A stretch of DNA of 64,000 nt from Clostridia bacterium (GTDB taxonomy: Bacteria; Bacillota; Clostridia; Oscillospirales; Acutalibacteraceae). Within the stretch, counting starts at the first letter, position 1. Each line of letters opens with the position of its first letter. The DNA is taken from the NCBI GenBank assembly GCA_024692685.1, contig JAILMJ010000053.1, forward strand, positions 51,663 to 115,662, in the 5' to 3' direction. The position numbers were made by a program, and so were the translations under genes. Shown piece by piece: positions 31,167 through 51,916 of the stretch. The notes under the pieces are model-generated. The model did not search any database, had not been told where the DNA came from, and worked only from the letters and a program-made list of their open reading frames with translations.

Positions 31167-31964
31167 ATGAAAACAGATAACGACAACAAAATGCTTCTCT
31201 CTTTCCTTGAAGAGAGGGCGGAAAAGTGCAGAAAGACGGGGCAGATTACCTTCAGCCGTTTTCTGGACCTGAATCAGCAGAGCCTCTGCGCTTCAATGAA
31301 GCTGCCCGCCGGGGTCAGCAGAATTTTTTACGGCGCGTCCCCTGCTCCGGAAAGGGCAGTTGCGGTCTTTGCTCCGGATGAACTTGAAATAAACTCATCC
31401 GCAGAACTTGAAAAATATTACATTGCGTCGCCGCGGGATTGCCCCGTTACTGTCCTGAAGGTGGTAAAGGACAGGTTTTCAAAGCCGCTCGGTCACAGGG
31501 ACTACCTGGGCGCTCTGATGGCCCTCGGCATTAACCGTGATGTTACGGGTGACATAGAAACAGACGACAGCGGAGCGAGAATAGCCGTTGCAGCGGGTAT
31601 GGCGGACTACATTGCCGGGCACCTTACAGGCGCCGGCAGGGGCACACTTAAAATTACGGCTGTATACCCGTGGGATTACCCGAGCCGTGTCAGAAACGAG
31701 GGAAATGATGAGAGCTTTACGGTTTCATCTCTCAGGCTTGACAGTGTGGTGAAAAACGGCTTCCGTGTTTCACGTGAAGAGGCTCACGAAGCCATAGAGC
31801 ACGGCTCAATCTTCGTCAATGACAGAGAATGTGAAAAGCCCGATAAAAGACTCACCGAAGGTGACAAGGTCACATTCAGGCACAGGGGCAGGCTCATCAT
31901 TGAGGACTGCTCCGGCGTGAGCAGAAAGGGAAAGACAATAGTCAAAATAAAAAGGTTCCTCTGA
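31167..31964 (+). CDS. YlmH-family S4-domain RNA-binding protein
   Basis: 265 aa; LGALMALGINRDVTGDI, S4 domain VKNGFRVSREEAHEAIEHGSIFVNDRECEKPDKRLTEGDKVTFRHRGRLII. Confidence 0.9.
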   Translation: MKTDNDNKMLLSFLEERAEKCRKTGQITFSRFLDLNQQSLCASMKLPAGVSRIFYGASPAPERAVAVFAPDELEINSSAELEKYYIASPRDCPVTVLKVVKDRFSKPLGHRDYLGALMALGINRDVTGDIETDDSGARIAVAAGMADYIAGHLTGAGRGTLKITAVYPWDYPSRVRNEGNDESFTVSSLRLDSVVKNGFRVSREEAHEAIEHGSIFVNDRECEKPDKRLTEGDKVTFRHRGRLIIEDCSGVSRKGKTIVKIKRFL

Positions 31965-31985
31965 AAAACAGAGGAACCTTTATCA
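31951..31985. terminator. bidirectional intrinsic terminator
   Basis: AAAGGTTCCTCtgaaaaacaGAGGAACCTTT. Confidence 0.85.
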
Positions 31986-31995
31986 TATTAAATTC

Positions 31996-32808
31996 TTATT
32001 TGGCGTAGTCGCCGACCATAAACATCAATTCGCCTATCTGACCGCCGAATTCCGGCGCGCCGTCCATGACAAGCTTGCCGGTCCTGACGGAATCAAGCAT
32101 ATCGTCTATGCTCAGAAGAATACCGAGCGCGCTCTTGAAGGAATCAAATCTCAGGGTGAAGAACGGAAGGGCTCTCTTGTATGTGCCTCTGCCCGCTCTG
32201 GATTTACCGGCCTTGATTCTGATATAGGCCGAAACTTCCGGATGATTCTCAACCGCAAATGCGTAAACACGGTCGGGGCTCTTTGATGTCCACTCCTTAA
32301 CTTTCTCGTGACCGTTCTTATTGAGGGTGCTTATACCGCTTGAAAGCAGATAGAAGAAACATTTAACCATAAGCTGCTGCGTTGTTTCATCTTCGGGGAT
32401 CTCTGTCGCGGTAAGCAGGGAGCTCATTTTAAGGAGAGTCATCATAAATGAAAGAAATGTGCCGCCGTGGGAGACAACGCCTTTCATTTTCGGAAGGGTC
32501 TTGGGCCCAATATTGCCTTTGAAGAAGGCGTTCATCTGCTCAACACTCTTGAATTCAAGTTCAACCTGTGTATGCTCTTTGTCGCTGACCTTATCGGCAT
32601 GAACAACCCATTCACCGTCGTTGATTACAAAGTGAGTCGCATATTTGCCGTCCGGAGCCTCCGGATCACGGGCGCTGACCTGAATAACGGCATGGGTCTT
32701 CTCGAACTTTTTGGCAAGTTTGGGATCGTCCGAAGCAATGGTCTTTAACAGCGGAAGAGCAGCACAGAGGAATATTTTATTGGTGAATATATCTTCTCTT
32801 GAAGCCAT
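31996..32808 (-). CDS. SCP2-like (sterol-carrier-fold) protein A, probably two SCP2-like modules
   Basis: 270 aa; KYATHFVINDGEWVVHADKVSDKEHTQVELEFKSVEQMNAFFKGNIGPKTLPKMKG and TGKLVMDGAPEFGGQIGELM resemble SCP2-fold patterns. Confidence 0.55.
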   Translation of the reverse strand: MASREDIFTNKIFLCAALPLLKTIASDDPKLAKKFEKTHAVIQVSARDPEAPDGKYATHFVINDGEWVVHADKVSDKEHTQVELEFKSVEQMNAFFKGNIGPKTLPKMKGVVSHGGTFLSFMMTLLKMSSLLTATEIPEDETTQQLMVKCFFYLLSSGISTLNKNGHEKVKEWTSKSPDRVYAFAVENHPEVSAYIRIKAGKSRAGRGTYKRALPFFTLRFDSFKSALGILLSIDDMLDSVRTGKLVMDGAPEFGGQIGELMFMVGDYAK

Positions 32809-32867
32809 ATTATTTCCTTTCTGTCAGCGGGATACTTATAAATCTGTATCTCACCGGCTCTTCTCAA

Positions 32868-33878
32868 TTAAAATTCGTCGTCCCAGTTGTCGTCCTCTTC
32901 AAAGTCGGCCTTCATAACCTCACGAACGGCATTGATTATGCCGTTTGCATCAATACCGACCTCAGCCATAATGTCTTCATGAAGACCTATGGGAGCAAAC
33001 TTATCCTGGTGGCCGAGTTTCTTGAATGCGCAGCCCTTACCTGCCTCAACAACAACTTCGGCTACTGCCGAGCCCAGACCGCCGATGACGCTGTGGTCTT
33101 CGACTGTGATAATTCTTCTGGTTTCGGTAACGGCTTTAAGGATTGCTTCCTTATCAATGGGCTTAATGGTGTGCATATTGAGAACGCGGACTTTGAGTCC
33201 GTCAGCGTTTTCAAGGAATTTTGCCGCTTCCTTTGCCTGAAGAACGCAGGAACCGCAGGCGATAACCGTGATATCGGAACCGGGGTTGATTTCAACCGCC
33301 TTGCCGACTTCAAAGCCGTAATCCATATTTTCATAGAGAACACGGTCAAAACCACGGTTGATTCTGATATAGTAAGGTCCGAAATTATCATAGGCAGCAT
33401 TAACTGCGTTCGCTGTTTCGTAGCCGTCTGCGGGAACTATGAGTGTGATGTTGGGCATTGCTCTTACGATAGCAAGGTCAACAATGGCATGGTGGGTTGA
33501 ACCCGCCTGGCCGAAAGATGTACCCGAATGGGTAGCTATTATCTTGGCATTGACATTCTGATAGCAAATATCGGTGTGAAGCTGGTCACAGGCTCTCATT
33601 GAAGTGAAAGCCGAGAAGCCGGAAACGAAGGGAGTGATGCCGGCTCTTGCAAGTCCTGCCGCAACTCCGAACATATCCTGCTCTGCGATACCGACATTGA
33701 TAACTCTCTCGGGGCAAACCTTAAGAACATCACCTAATTTTGTCGACTTTGCAAGGTCGGCGGTAACGGCAACCACTTTGGGGTCTCTCTGCATAATATC
33801 GGCTATTGCCTTGCCGTATATTTCGGATGTTGAAAGGTCAGTCTGGCTTGTTGCAGTATAAACAAATCCGCCTGCCAT
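32868..33878 (-). CDS. transketolase, C-terminal subunit (split)
   Basis: 336 aa; VTADLAKSTKLGDVLKVCPERVINVGIAEQDMFGVAAGLARAG; pyrimidine-binding and C-terminal transketolase domains. Confidence 0.95.
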   Translation of the reverse strand: MAGGFVYTATSQTDLSTSEIYGKAIADIMQRDPKVVAVTADLAKSTKLGDVLKVCPERVINVGIAEQDMFGVAAGLARAGITPFVSGFSAFTSMRACDQLHTDICYQNVNAKIIATHSGTSFGQAGSTHHAIVDLAIVRAMPNITLIVPADGYETANAVNAAYDNFGPYYIRINRGFDRVLYENMDYGFEVGKAVEINPGSDITVIACGSCVLQAKEAAKFLENADGLKVRVLNMHTIKPIDKEAILKAVTETRRIITVEDHSVIGGLGSAVAEVVVEAGKGCAFKKLGHQDKFAPIGLHEDIMAEVGIDANGIINAVREVMKADFEEDDNWDDEF

Positions 33879-33880
33879 AA

Positions 33881-34759
33881 TTATTCACCCTCCTTTTCCG
33901 CTCTTTCGCAACGGACTTTGTAATCCTCATCAAGTTCGTTGTTGAATTTTTCAAACATGGCGTCATCAATTCCGCCGTAGTGCCAGAGGTAATCACCCTC
34001 TATGGTCTTTATGCCGGCGCCCTTCTTGGTGTCCATAATGATGCACGAAGGTGCACAGGGCTCTTTTGAGCGGGCAACAGCGGCGTCAATAGCTTCGCAC
34101 AGAGCGCTTATGTTGTTGCCGTCTACCGTTACGGTGTTGAAGCCGAAGGCAACCATCTTATCCGCAAGCGGCTCAAGTTTCATAACATCCTCTGTGTTAC
34201 CGTCTATCATGCAATGGTTTCTGTCAATGAAAACTATGCAGTTTGAAAGTTTATAATGATTAAGTGTCATAAAGCCTTCCCAGTTTGAACCTTCACCGAG
34301 CTCGCCGTCGCCTGTGGCAACATAGGTGAGATAGTCCTTGCCGAGAATTCTCGCCGCAAGAGCAGTACCGGCGGCAATGGATACGCCGTGACCGAGCGAA
34401 CCGGTTGACGCGTCAACACCGACAACCTTGTTGGAGTCAAGGTGCATACCCATTTTTGAACCGGAAAGATTGAAGGTCTTGAGCATTTCAACATCGTTGA
34501 AACCCTTGTCGCAGAGTACGGGAGCATAGGAAATGGCCGCATGACCCTTTGAAAGAATGAATCTGTCTCTGTCTTCCCACTTGGGATCTTCAACTTTAAT
34601 GTTGAGATACTTATGATACATAACGGTCAGCAGATCCAGAATACTCATTCCGCCGCCAATATGGCCGCTGCCTGCCCAGGCAACTGTCTGAAGAGTCAGT
34701 TTTCTGAGCTCGTGAGCTTTTTTCTCAAGGGCAAGCCATTCCTGCTTTGATAATGCCAT
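33881..34759 (-). CDS. transketolase, N-terminal (ThDP-binding) subunit (split)
   Basis: 292 aa; GSGHIGGGMSILDLLTVMYH, GDGELGEGSNWEGFMTLNHYKLSNCIVFIDRN. Confidence 0.95.
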   Translation of the reverse strand: MALSKQEWLALEKKAHELRKLTLQTVAWAGSGHIGGGMSILDLLTVMYHKYLNIKVEDPKWEDRDRFILSKGHAAISYAPVLCDKGFNDVEMLKTFNLSGSKMGMHLDSNKVVGVDASTGSLGHGVSIAAGTALAARILGKDYLTYVATGDGELGEGSNWEGFMTLNHYKLSNCIVFIDRNHCMIDGNTEDVMKLEPLADKMVAFGFNTVTVDGNNISALCEAIDAAVARSKEPCAPSCIIMDTKKGAGIKTIEGDYLWHYGGIDDAMFEKFNNELDEDYKVRCERAEKEGE

Positions 34760-34820
34760 GGAAAATTCCTCCTTTTTGTGTATGGTTGACCGGTCTCACA
34801 GGGACCGTGAATTAATTAAA

Positions 34821-36107
34821 TCAGCCGAGTTCCGGGTGGTTTTTCTTAACCACTTTGAAGGCCTCTTCGCAAATCTCGATGCTTCTCTTGATATCGTCGC
34901 TTGTCAGGGAAGCGTTAATGAAGTGATTGTGATGCGATGCAAGGAACACACCTCTGTTAACACATTCCGCTATCCACTCCTGATGAAGCATAAGCGAATC
35001 GTCGTTAGCTATTCTCAGATAGAAGAGGGCGGGAGCGCCGCTGACCACAAGGTTAAAGCCGTTGTTTGCCGCGGCAGCCTTCAGGCCGTCGGTTAACTGC
35101 GTGCCGAGTTCACGGAAGAGTTTGGGAGTATCGAGCTTCTTCATCTTATTGATGCAGGCGATGCAGGCCGCAAAGGGAATCGCGCTCATCCAGTATGAAC
35201 CGGTGTATGAAAGGCTGGATGCCGCTCCTTTGAGGAATTCCTTGCCGCAGAACGCCGACATATTCCAGCCGTTTGCGAGAGCCTTGCAGAAGCAGATTAT
35301 ATCGGCCTCGAAGCCGAAATAATGGTCGGAACCGGCAATATCAAGACGGAAGCCGGCGCGAACATCGTCAACTATAAGAACGATTCCGTTGTCTGTGCAG
35401 AGCTTTCTGACATCCTGCCAAAAACCGTCGGCAGGATACTTGTTGTCGTAGAAATTGCCGTGGTCGTAAGGCTGGGCAATAACAGCGGCTATATCGTTAT
35501 CCTCGGCAACTATCTTTCTGAGGGTTGCAATATCATCCCAATCAACATAGATGTTGTTGGCAACATCCTCGGGAAGAACGCCGGGATAGTCGATTTTCTG
35601 AACTATGGGAGAAACACCGTGATAGAAGCCGTTGAAGAAAATCAGCTTTTTCTTATGAGTATGTGCACGGGCGGTAAGAATGGCACCCTGAGTGGCATCG
35701 TTACCGTTTTTTGCGAAGAAAGCCCAGTCTGCGCAGTTAACAGTATCAACAAGTAACTCCGCACATTCAACCATTATCTTGTTGGGAGAAGTTGTGCAGT
35801 TGCCGAGTTTAGCCTGCGCCAATGCCGCGGCGTCAACATCCGGATCGTTATATCCGAGCACATTGGGGCCGTATGCGCACATATAATCAACATATTTGTT
35901 TCCGTCAACATCCCAGAAATATGAACCCTGGGCTTTATCGGAAAAACGGGGCCAGCGATTAACCGGAGTGAAAAGACCTTCGGCAGGGCCGAGATGACCG
36001 TAAACGCCGGAGGGAATTACCTTTGCGGCTCTGGCATACCATTCATCCGACTTGGTTGTTTTATAACAGGTAAATTTCTTTACCTTGGGATCAAAATTGT
36101 CACTCAT
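34821..36107 (-). CDS. class III PLP aminotransferase, glutamate-1-semialdehyde-2,1-aminomutase-like
   Basis: 428 aa; VDYMCAYGPNVLGYNDPDV, LIVDDVRAGFRLD, ICFCKALANGWNMSAFCG (PLP Lys). Confidence 0.9.
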   Translation of the reverse strand: MSDNFDPKVKKFTCYKTTKSDEWYARAAKVIPSGVYGHLGPAEGLFTPVNRWPRFSDKAQGSYFWDVDGNKYVDYMCAYGPNVLGYNDPDVDAAALAQAKLGNCTTSPNKIMVECAELLVDTVNCADWAFFAKNGNDATQGAILTARAHTHKKKLIFFNGFYHGVSPIVQKIDYPGVLPEDVANNIYVDWDDIATLRKIVAEDNDIAAVIAQPYDHGNFYDNKYPADGFWQDVRKLCTDNGIVLIVDDVRAGFRLDIAGSDHYFGFEADIICFCKALANGWNMSAFCGKEFLKGAASSLSYTGSYWMSAIPFAACIACINKMKKLDTPKLFRELGTQLTDGLKAAAANNGFNLVVSGAPALFYLRIANDDSLMLHQEWIAECVNRGVFLASHHNHFINASLTSDDIKRSIEICEEAFKVVKKNHPELG

Positions 36108-36121
36108 TTCGCTTTCCTCCT

Positions 36122-36880
36122 TTAAGCAAGATAAATCGCAACTCTGTCAAGTATGCGATTGACATTGTCGAGCATTGCCATGAGTCCGTGCATTTCAACC
36201 TTGCCCGTTCCTATGCAGGCAAGCGCGTTGACTTTGCCGCCGAACAAATCGTTTGCGGTCTGATAACTGTCAAATATCATTGAGCAGCGGTATTTTTCCG
36301 GCCTCTTTTTCAGGCAGAGGAGTCTGTGGTTTTTGGCGATGATTTCAACTGCGGGACCGTCTTTGATGGCTATCATCACGCTGCCGTCAACAATGTGCGC
36401 GGCACTGAACTTGCAGATTTCATCTTGATTGCCGAGCTGGGCAATAGCCACGCCGATAACATTCAGCGTCATCTCCGTATTTATACGGAAAATGTCGGGG
36501 TCCTTCAAGTCCTCATCGGAGGGTCTGAGATACTTGTTAAGCAGATCTGTAAGCTTGGTAAAATCTTTGAGAAGAAAACCGATGTGAGTGAATCCTTTTG
36601 AGGGAATCGGGGTAACCGTTCCGTCAATAAGTCCGTTAAATTTTTCGCAGGAGCTGAAAGGAAGTTTGACATTGCATTTGCTGCAACCCTGTTCCATTCT
36701 GCACTTACCGTTCGCAAAGGTAATTGTGGCGCTCGGGCCGCCCTTAACCTCGAAGCCTATGGAAAGAGGCTTTTTATTGGTTAAAGCAGCGCTCGCTTCG
36801 GGAACAAGTTCGCAGAGGTTCTCAAGAGCACCCAGGACTGCGTAGAGATTGACATACGCGAGGGCTTTTTGATCAATCAT
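36122..36880 (-). CDS. SCP2-like protein B, probable paralogue of 31996..32808
   Basis: 252 aa; GGPSATITFANGKCRMEQGCSKCNVKLPFSSCEKFNGLIDGTVTPIPSKG and second module ending TGKVEMHGLMAMLDNVN. Confidence 0.55.
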   Translation of the reverse strand: MIDQKALAYVNLYAVLGALENLCELVPEASAALTNKKPLSIGFEVKGGPSATITFANGKCRMEQGCSKCNVKLPFSSCEKFNGLIDGTVTPIPSKGFTHIGFLLKDFTKLTDLLNKYLRPSDEDLKDPDIFRINTEMTLNVIGVAIAQLGNQDEICKFSAAHIVDGSVMIAIKDGPAVEIIAKNHRLLCLKKRPEKYRCSMIFDSYQTANDLFGGKVNALACIGTGKVEMHGLMAMLDNVNRILDRVAIYLA

Positions 36881-37150
36881 TTTGATTTCCTCCTAAATTC
36901 AGTTTCCGTTGCGGGAAAAGAGGGCGGTTTTCGGACTGAAACCGCGGCACAATTTCCCACTTAACAGTTCCTGATAATATTTATTTTATTTTAGCATGCG
37001 GTTTATTTAAAGTCAACAAAATAATAAGACATCAGCAGCGTCCGATTGTAAAACTTAACATCATTTTTTTGTATATTATAGCAAAACCGCGGGATTTGCT
37101 GTCCAATCTCCCGCCTCCCCGATTAACCGCGGCATAGAATAAATCCAAAA

Positions 37151-37427: not shown

Positions 37428-37949
37428 TTATGCTCTTTTCTTGGTGCAAACATATGCAGCAGCAGCAGCAACAGAAACAGTTGCGAAAGCTACGATGCCA
37501 ACGGGAGCAGAACCGGTGTCAACAGACTCGGCAGCTGCGGTCTCGTCAACGAACTCAGCGCTGGAGCCAGCATAGAGAGCCTTAATCTTCTCTTTGATTG
37601 TCTGGATGATGTTCTTGATGGTCTTGTAGATGTCGCCAACGATGGGGAGATCTTCGATCTTAGCATCGAGGTCATCAACTGCACCGAGAACGTCCTCTGC
37701 ACAAGCGCCGTTGCCGATGTTCTTAACCATATCTACAACCTTGTTGAAGAGGCCTTCGATCTGATCCCAGAGGTCAGCAAGCTCTTTGTCGCCTGTGAAG
37801 ATACCCTTGAGAGTATCAAGGAGAGTCTGGATGCTGTATTCAGCATCGGTGTCGGATGCGTCAGTGCCTGTTGCAGGAGCTGCAAAAGCAAGTGACGAAG
37901 CGGAAAGTGCGATTACGAGTGCGAGTACGATTGCAAGTACTTTTTTCAT
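37428..37949 (-). CDS. small secreted surface protein (helical, C-terminal TM with Arg/Lys tail)
   Basis: Signal peptide MKKVLAIVLALVIALSASSLAFA; C-terminal VDTGSAPVGIVAFATVSVAAAAAYVCTKKRA resembles a sortase-type tail without canonical LPXTG. Confidence 0.75.
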   Translation of the reverse strand: MKKVLAIVLALVIALSASSLAFAAPATGTDASDTDAEYSIQTLLDTLKGIFTGDKELADLWDQIEGLFNKVVDMVKNIGNGACAEDVLGAVDDLDAKIEDLPIVGDIYKTIKNIIQTIKEKIKALYAGSSAEFVDETAAAESVDTGSAPVGIVAFATVSVAAAAAYVCTKKRA

Positions 37950-38157: not shown

Positions 38158-38928
38158 TTATGCTTCTGCTTCCGCTTTATTGCTCTTCCTCTCCGCAAAT
38201 CTATCCTCTATTTTAACGACTATCTTATTATATATGATTTTTGCAAGGAAATAGCCGGCAACCGCGCATACAATACCGACAAGCGCTCCGACAAGAACAT
38301 CCGTGCAGTAGTGAACGTGGAGGTAAATCCTTGTGAAGCCGATCAGCGCCGCAACGATTATTGCGCAGCAGCCCATCGCCTTCTGGCCCTTGCCCTTGCA
38401 CATTGAGAACATTCCGCACGCCGCGGCAAAGCTCGATGAGGTATGGCCTGAGGGGAATGAATACCCGTGGGCATAGGGATAGCCGATATCAAGCGGCGAG
38501 TGACCGCTGAAGCACGCAAGCCATTTCTGCTGAAACTCGGCGCCGTAAATTTTCATTTCCTCAATGACCTGATCAATATAGCCGGCCTTCATCCAGCCGT
38601 CATAGTGTTTGCCGTTGAAATCGTATCCGTTGACACATCTGTTCGCGACTTCCGGGTTAAACAGGGCAAACGGCCTCGTCCTTGAGAAGATGCTTTTGAG
38701 AACGACATTATTAAGAAGAAGCATTACAGCCTGTGCCATAAGCATCGCTATACCTATCTTCCGTGTTTTTTTGGGGATGCAGAATATCAGACCGACTGCA
38801 ATCCAGAATATTCCGTCGCCGAGCCAGGTTACATAGGAAAGCAAAGGAGTAAGCCAACTGCCCGCCGCATCGATCATCCTGTTCATCGCTTCAAATACGG
38901 ATAAATCAAAGTTGAGAATGGACTCCAA
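38158..38928 (-). CDS. PAP2-family membrane phosphatase
   Basis: PAP2 signature blocks KSIFSRTRPFA, YSFPSGHTSSSFA, TRIYLHVHYCTDVLVG. Confidence 0.92.
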   Translation of the reverse strand: MESILNFDLSVFEAMNRMIDAAGSWLTPLLSYVTWLGDGIFWIAVGLIFCIPKKTRKIGIAMLMAQAVMLLLNNVVLKSIFSRTRPFALFNPEVANRCVNGYDFNGKHYDGWMKAGYIDQVIEEMKIYGAEFQQKWLACFSGHSPLDIGYPYAHGYSFPSGHTSSSFAAACGMFSMCKGKGQKAMGCCAIIVAALIGFTRIYLHVHYCTDVLVGALVGIVCAVAGYFLAKIIYNKIVVKIEDRFAERKSNKAEAEA

Positions 38929-51421: not shown

Positions 51422-51916
51422 TTATGCGTATTTCGCGAGAATCGTTTTTACCTGGTTGGGAGTTACCTTACCGTAAACGTCATCGTTTACCATGAAAACG
51501 GGAGCAAGTCCGCAGGCTCCTACGCAGCGGCATTCTTCAATGGAGAACTTGCTGTCGTTGGTGCATTCGCCGGAACCGATACCGAGTTCACTGCATATTT
51601 CATCAAGCACAGCCTGTGAACCCTTGACATAACATGCTGTTCCGAGGCAGACGGATACATTGTATTTACCCTTGGGCGAAAGAGCAAACTGAGCATAAAA
51701 TGTGGATACTCCGTAAACCTTCTCAAGGGGAACGTCCATTCCTTCGGCTATCATAACCTGAACCTCAAAGGGAAGGTATCCATAGATATCCTGCGCCTTC
51801 TGCATAACAGCCATAAGAAGGTGCTTGTCGTGCTTGCTCTCATCGATAACGGCCTTAAGCTGTTTCTCCTGTTCGGGGGTGCCTTTAAACGGAATCTTGC
51901 TTATTTTTTTAATCAT
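51422..51916 (-). CDS. hydC: NuoE-like subunit of bifurcating hydrogenase
   Basis: 164 aa; GVSTFYAQFALSPKGKYNVSVCLGTACYVKGSQAVLDEI, IEECRCVGACGLAPV. Confidence 0.95.
   Translation of the reverse strand: MIKKISKIPFKGTPEQEKQLKAVIDESKHDKHLLMAVMQKAQDIYGYLPFEVQVMIAEGMDVPLEKVYGVSTFYAQFALSPKGKYNVSVCLGTACYVKGSQAVLDEICSELGIGSGECTNDSKFSIEECRCVGACGLAPVFMVNDDVYGKVTPNQVKTILAKYA

Follow-up and report, generated by a model that had tools for sequence, protein, structure and literature searches.

The window analyzed here, a 64,000-nucleotide stretch of DNA from a Clostridia bacterium (GenBank assembly GCA_024692685.1, contig JAILMJ010000053.1, forward-strand positions 51,663 to 115,662), carries at positions 31996 to 36880 five minus-strand genes that are real and that look like a single transcription unit. 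They encode two proteins with an SCP2 fold, a class III aminotransferase (AT), and the two halves of a split transketolase. The operon is real and deeply conserved, and it is apparently undescribed. With somewhat less than even confidence, we interpret it as a dedicated aminolipid pathway to sphingoid-like 2-amino-1,3-diols that operates without serine palmitoyltransferase (Spt). We propose more tentatively that it is a natural transketolase-aminotransferase cascade that builds or degrades such diols in anaerobic Clostridia, with a tandem SCP2 carrier for each enzyme, and thus that lipids of the sphingolipid type have an Spt-independent origin. The five genes are as follows.

36122 to 36880, minus strand: SCPa, tandem SCP2-fold protein, in every case adjacent to AT (Pfam SCP2, AlphaFold, Foldseek)
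34821 to 36107, minus strand: AT, FumI-like class III aminotransferase (Pfam Aminotran_3; FumI is the best solved match)
33881 to 34759, minus strand: TKn, thiamine diphosphate-binding half of a split transketolase (Pfam Transketolase_N)
32868 to 33878, minus strand: TKc, pyrimidine and C-terminal half of the split transketolase (Pfam Transket_pyr and Transketolase_C)
31996 to 32808, minus strand: SCPb, second tandem SCP2-fold protein, adjoining TKc (AlphaFold, Foldseek, profile match to SCPa)

All five open reading frames are open at these coordinates, with intergenic gaps of 2 to 61 bp, on a 115.7-kb contig of a 2.27-Mb genome that is 91% complete in 118 contigs. A first-pass annotation, made from the sequence alone, had read the genes as apparently a single operon, and both this spacing and the retention of gene order in most of 80 related loci bear that reading out. 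These are the best 80 loci from over 580 relatives retrieved when AT was used as a query on public genomes; most of the related records carry titles that refer to uncultured Clostridia, Ruminococcaceae, or Oscillospiraceae, and many come from gut, rumen, or feces. SCPa is present in 78 of the 80 loci, TKn in 75, TKc in 72, and SCPb in 69, and wherever the genes are present their direction and the order SCPa-AT-TKn-TKc-SCPb are constant, the absences falling mostly at contig ends. The co-occurrence of the five genes in other genomes, which the first-pass annotation had named as a check on its proposal, extends to other families: f41 and f42 have all five in unchanged order, with identities of 25 to 41% for SCPa, 43 to 58% for AT, and 54 to 63% for TKc, so that the order holds even in families whose SCPa has an identity of only about 27%. 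Gene order kept in so many genomes excludes chance. Within its genus, the operon is near-universal and mostly single copy, small and incomplete genomes included. No sixth gene recurs throughout the 80 loci, whose flanks differ, and no transporter, hydroxysteroid dehydrogenase, or catabolic gene recurs beside the operon in them. Among open-license papers, we found none on this five-gene set.

The operon splits into two units, SCPa-AT and TKn-TKc-SCPb, which lie on separate contigs within one genome in G020, G034, and G258; this division was beyond what the first-pass annotation could see. In G095 and G317, SCPa-AT is present and TKn-TKc-SCPb is apparently missing. Among 99 relatives, SCPa and SCPb occur together in 47, one occurs without the other in only 3, and neither is found in 49 (Fisher P = 1e-24, for genomes that are not independent of one another). 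A 399-genome sample of the phylum contains SCPa in six genomes besides the window's own; SCPb is found in 4 of those six and nowhere else, and the transketolase of this module is found in 5 of the six and nowhere else (in G228, it is cut by a contig end). One explanation for the division is that the two units carry out separate reactions on a shared hydrophobic pool and not consecutive steps of one pathway. The unlinked units of G020, G034, and G258 and the solitary SCPa-AT of G095 and G317 are consistent with this explanation, but the confinement of the module transketolase to SCPa-AT genomes (5 of 5 in the phylum sample) and the maintenance of the fused order across families make it improbable. 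The SCPb match in G038 (contig 6, 21612 to 22409) holds one in-frame TAG stop, which is either real decay or an assembly error.

The first-pass annotation had described the outer proteins as apparent paralogues, each with two SCP2-fold-like halves, and fold prediction and profile comparison both agree. SCPa scores 23.7 bits against Pfam SCP2 (PF02036; cut-off, 21.3). SCPb of this window has no Pfam match of its own, and distant orthologues of both proteins pass the SCP2 cut-off. AlphaFold models built from alignments of the window proteins with those of related loci have pLDDT values of 93.7 (SCPa) and 92.8 (SCPb), and in Foldseek both match the SCP2 domains of alkylsulfatases, UbiJ, and sterol carrier proteins. 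The models thus confirm an SCP2 fold for both outer proteins. The order of secondary-structure elements recurs in both halves of each model. By hhalign, the N-terminal half of SCPa matches its own C-terminal half (E = 1.5e-7), and the C-terminal half of SCPa matches that of SCPb (E = 1.2e-6); the whole profiles match at an E value of 5.5e-8. These profile matches show SCPa to be a tandem duplication and SCPb to be its paralogue. In the cases that are known, the ligands of SCP2 folds are lipids (PMC6747719).

AT matches Pfam Aminotran_3 and has an invariant catalytic lysine, Lys275. Its best match of solved structure is FumI (PDB 6hbs), with 360 bits compared with 204 bits for the next, and FumI is 38% identical to the window AT and 34 to 43% identical to AT orthologues. 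A tree groups FumI with the AT orthologues at 100/100, apart from the GSA-like (glutamate-1-semialdehyde aminomutase-like) paralogues of the same genomes, although the FumI branch is long and its exact placement is unsure. The two also have the motifs YGH, DYMCAYGPN-LGY, ADWA-F-KNG-D, and TGS-W-S-P-AA in common. FumI takes the 2-amino group from hydrolyzed fumonisin B1, a sphingoid-like polyol with a long chain and a 2-amino-3-hydroxy arrangement, and passes it to pyruvate (PMC2933618). In 11 of the 80 loci (L047, L051, L052, L053, L083, L088, L090, L095, L097, L104, and L105), the operon has, no more than a few kilobases away, the gene of a second class III aminotransferase, GSA-like and of about 500 amino acids, next to that of a class II aldolase protein; this aminotransferase has a relative on contig 73 of the window's genome.

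The enzymes of the operon could in principle be the housekeeping transketolase and glutamate-1-semialdehyde aminomutase of the cell, and the fact that no other protein in the genome exceeds the hemL cut-off would fit this. However, AT itself scores only 188 bits against hemL, for which the cut-off is 527; neither the window's genome nor any carrier tested has a hemL above cut-off, and none of nine carrier genomes has a hemB (ALAD family) above cut-off. The window's genome also has a second split transketolase with canonical residues, including both R318 and D424 (human numbering), on contig 49, in addition to a DXS-like protein on contig 4. Of the separate copies by which the first-pass annotation proposed to recognize housekeeping genes, the transketolase is therefore present and hemL is not, yet AT lies so far below the hemL cut-off that, together with the missing hemB, we rule out the housekeeping assignment as having almost no probability. 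The earlier statement that tetrapyrrole synthesis is unsupported agrees with the hemB result.

The first-pass annotation had also taken the split form of the transketolase as a sign of a dedicated pathway. This does not hold, since the split form is the normal one in the phylum, being present in 334 of the 399 sampled genomes (E value of 1e-60 or better). It is therefore the changed active site, and not the split, that marks this transketolase as unusual. The thiamine diphosphate and pyrimidine domains are above their Pfam cut-offs, and the catalytic His, Glu, Asp, Asn, and Lys are kept in the module sequences that cover those positions. We mapped the substrate contacts of 86 distinct module sequences through a TKc profile alignment to human transketolase, in which we take D424 to be an acceptor-binding residue and R318 a phosphate-binding residue (D469 and R358, respectively, in Escherichia coli). 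The D424 position is Ala in 86 of 86 sequences and the R318 position is replaced in 85 of 86; in the window TKc, the acceptor site has Ala in place of Asp and Ser in place of Arg. More distant members retain the Ala, and position 318 is occupied by Arg or Lys in a divergent subtype. In contrast, the pattern TR...GEDG, or one near it, is found in ten canonical split transketolases that we compared and in most of a further set.

Substitutions at the same positions alter acceptor preference in E. coli transketolase. Propionaldehyde is a better substrate for the D469T and D469A variants, and linear aliphatic aldehydes are among the acceptors of several D469 variants (PMC3657141); D469T provides a hydrophobic surface for nonpolar acceptors (PMC10787763; see also PMC5073344), and changes at R358 also aid aromatic aldehydes (PMC7661550). 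The catalytic Glu and the equivalents of S345, H416, and R474 are kept in the module, while Q428 is His, as it is in the other split transketolases compared. Two other kinds of split transketolase, encoded beside zinc-dependent dehydrogenases, have also lost the Asp but keep the Arg; therefore, loss of the Asp indicates an altered acceptor and not by itself a lipid, and as a unique mark of the operon it is weakened. Asp-less split transketolases of this Arg-keeping kind (TGAGPTHY, GNGGTTHH) are found at L224, L225, L226, and L227, and those at L226 and L227 adjoin zinc-dependent dehydrogenase and SDR genes in a layout that recalls desABC. At L158 (G095, contig 27), there is a divergent split transketolase half whose unusual acceptor site reads GALG instead of GEDG; this genome has SCPa-AT without the module transketolase, for which the divergent half could substitute.

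These results bear on two further explanations, which concern the substrate. The first supposes a polar product, an amino-sugar or aminopolyol, with the SCP2-fold proteins acting as scaffolds or binding a compound that is not the substrate. Small polar compounds are common substrates of both class III aminotransferases and transketolases, and three phosphate ligands remain in the module transketolase. A hydroxylated acceptor is nevertheless hard to square with the loss of the Asp that contacts the acceptor hydroxyl (PMC3657141), known examples of the SCP2 fold are lipid binders (PMC6747719), and the nearest relative of AT is an enzyme of long-chain amines, so we consider a polar product rather unlikely. 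In the second, the substrate is a steroid, an isoprenoid, or another ring or branched compound instead of a fatty aldehyde. The split transketolase DesAB works on steroids (PMC3735941), and prenylated quinone intermediates are also among the ligands of SCP2 folds (PMC6747719), but the 80 loci have no recurrent hydroxysteroid dehydrogenase or transporter gene beside the operon, and it is present in families for which host steroids would be an unlikely substrate. We give this explanation little weight.

Based on the SCP2 folds, the loss of both D424 and R318, the kinship of AT with FumI, the conserved five-gene order, and the co-occurrence of the two units even where they are unlinked, we favor the following pathway to an aminolipid. 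TKn-TKc would transfer a two-carbon ketol unit to a hydrophobic aldehyde without a 2-hydroxyl, of which a fatty aldehyde is the simplest candidate, yielding a 1,3-dihydroxy-2-ketone, HOCH2-CO-CH(OH)-R. AT would then aminate the ketone to HOCH2-CH(NH2)-CH(OH)-R, which has the head structure of sphingoid bases. SCPa, with AT, and SCPb, with the transketolase, would hold the poorly soluble long-chain intermediates, in the manner of UbiJ. We infer the hydrophobic substrate, the order of the steps, their direction, and the product, with the substrate class and the product deduced from kinship and from the analogy of residues. Bacterial sphingolipid synthesis, in its known first step, relies on the alpha-oxoamine synthase class (PMC11334938), and the finding that six genomes of the genus, as well as G484, have no match to a TIGR01825-like enzyme of this class further supports the proposal, although two f41 carriers do have one. 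Four observations weigh against it: SCPa-AT occurs without the transketolase in G095 and G317; Asp is also lost in the other split transketolases described above; no LuxC-type reductase, as a source of fatty aldehyde, was found in 13 genomes; and the retention of S345, H416, and R474, three of the four phosphate ligands, means that a sugar-phosphate partner may still be bound.

The last two of these observations are also consistent with chemistry in the reverse direction, in which AT would deaminate sphingoid bases of host, plant, or fungal origin and the transketolase would split the dihydroxyketone so formed into a fatty aldehyde, which is released, and a ketol unit, which is handed to a sugar phosphate and used as carbon. 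Breakdown needs no aldehyde source, FumI is catabolic (PMC2933618), and the reaction proposed for DesAB is cleavage of the cortisol side chain, a dihydroxyketone, with the two carbons entering the pentose-phosphate pathway (PMC3735941). However, the operon is near-universal and mostly single copy in its genus, extends to distant families, and is flanked neither by a transporter gene nor by a catabolic gene that recurs. Because of this distribution and the lack of transporters, we prefer synthesis, which is a judgement, and regard breakdown as unlikely but as carrying a real minority of the probability. Fumonisin has the 2S,3S configuration, whereas common sphinganine is 2S,3R. Since wild-type E. 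coli transketolase gives mainly a 3S product (PMC3657141), the two enzymes would agree in their stereochemistry, and by analogy the operon product might be a threo isomer.

The general idea of the first-pass annotation, in which ketol transfer is followed by amination of an intermediate bound to SCP2-like proteins, fits these results, and the outcomes for fold, co-occurrence, and housekeeping copies, the three points on which it could by its own account have failed, all went its way. Its interpretation is thus partly supported and is narrowed toward an aminolipid, which the residue evidence in the sequences favors over an amino-sugar. If the proposed pathway is correct, common and mostly uncultured Clostridia of the gut and rumen make sphingoid-like lipids that are invisible to surveys that use serine palmitoyltransferase as a marker gene, and the operon is nature's equivalent of an aminodiol cascade used in industry, one whose transketolase is already suited to hydrophobic aldehydes. 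Even with another product, this is a deeply conserved, apparently undescribed operon that comes with a clear and testable biochemical prediction.

The surroundings of the operon include the following minus-strand sequence signals.

37016 to 36988, minus strand: promoter-like site TTGACT-17 nt-TAAAAT (consensus scan, by itself no proof of function)
37011 to 36983, minus strand: weaker promoter-like site overlapping the preceding one (consensus scan)
36889 to 36894, minus strand: good ribosome-binding site, AGGAGG, ahead of SCPa (read from the sequence)
31951 to 31981, minus strand: terminator-like hairpin 3' of SCPb, a 13-pair stem followed by a T-rich tail (consensus match)

The promoter-like site, a consensus match only, lies about 108 bp upstream of SCPa. 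No riboswitch or other RNA leader was matched in Rfam within the window. Farther upstream on the same strand is a PAP2-family phosphatase gene (38158 to 38928), probably unrelated to the operon, with a small secreted-looking protein (37428 to 37949) encoded in between. Several f42 genomes (L134, L136, L201, L204, and L205) have, immediately upstream of the operon, a Mur-ligase-like gene that by eye is of the MurT type; its position might be a hint of a role in the cell envelope. A condensation/alcohol-acetyltransferase-like protein, for which the Pfam match is below cut-off, is encoded 3' of SCPb in three loci (L097, 12046 to 13344; L104; and L120), and it is a possible acyltransferase for the operon product.

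Several known systems resemble parts of the operon. FumI, the aminopentol aminotransferase of Sphingopyxis, shares the AT clade and active-site motifs, but its role is toxin breakdown, and nothing here ties it to a transketolase or to SCP2 proteins. The split transketolase of Carboxydothermus hydrogenoformans (PDB 6yaj and 6yak) is the closest solved relative of TKn and TKc and has the same two-chain layout, but it keeps the R318 and D424 equivalents and TR...GEDG and is not shown with an AT or SCP2 partner. DesAB, the steroid-17,20-desmolase of Clostridium scindens, is likewise a split transketolase with a hydrophobic dihydroxyketone as its proposed substrate (PMC3735941); its operon, which we compared by description, has hydroxysteroid dehydrogenase and transporter genes and no AT or SCP2 genes. 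UbiJ and UbiT, accessory proteins of ubiquinone synthesis, have the SCP2 fold in common with SCPa and SCPb, and UbiJ binds the hydrophobic intermediates of a soluble ubiquinone-synthesis enzyme complex (PMC6747719), but they have a single SCP2 domain rather than two and belong to another pathway. Spt-dependent bacterial sphingolipid synthesis leads to the same proposed product class, a long-chain base with a 2-amino-1,3-diol head, but by other enzymes, beginning with the alpha-oxoamine synthase that the six genus genomes lack a match for. The laboratory transketolase-transaminase cascade to 2-amino-1,3-diols is man-made, uses short-chain substrates, and works without lipid carriers, but it joins both of the reactions proposed here in the same order and uses D469 transketolase variants for aliphatic aldehydes (PMC3657141), and one of its products, named in a reference of the same paper, is (2S,3S)-2-aminopentane-1,3-diol.

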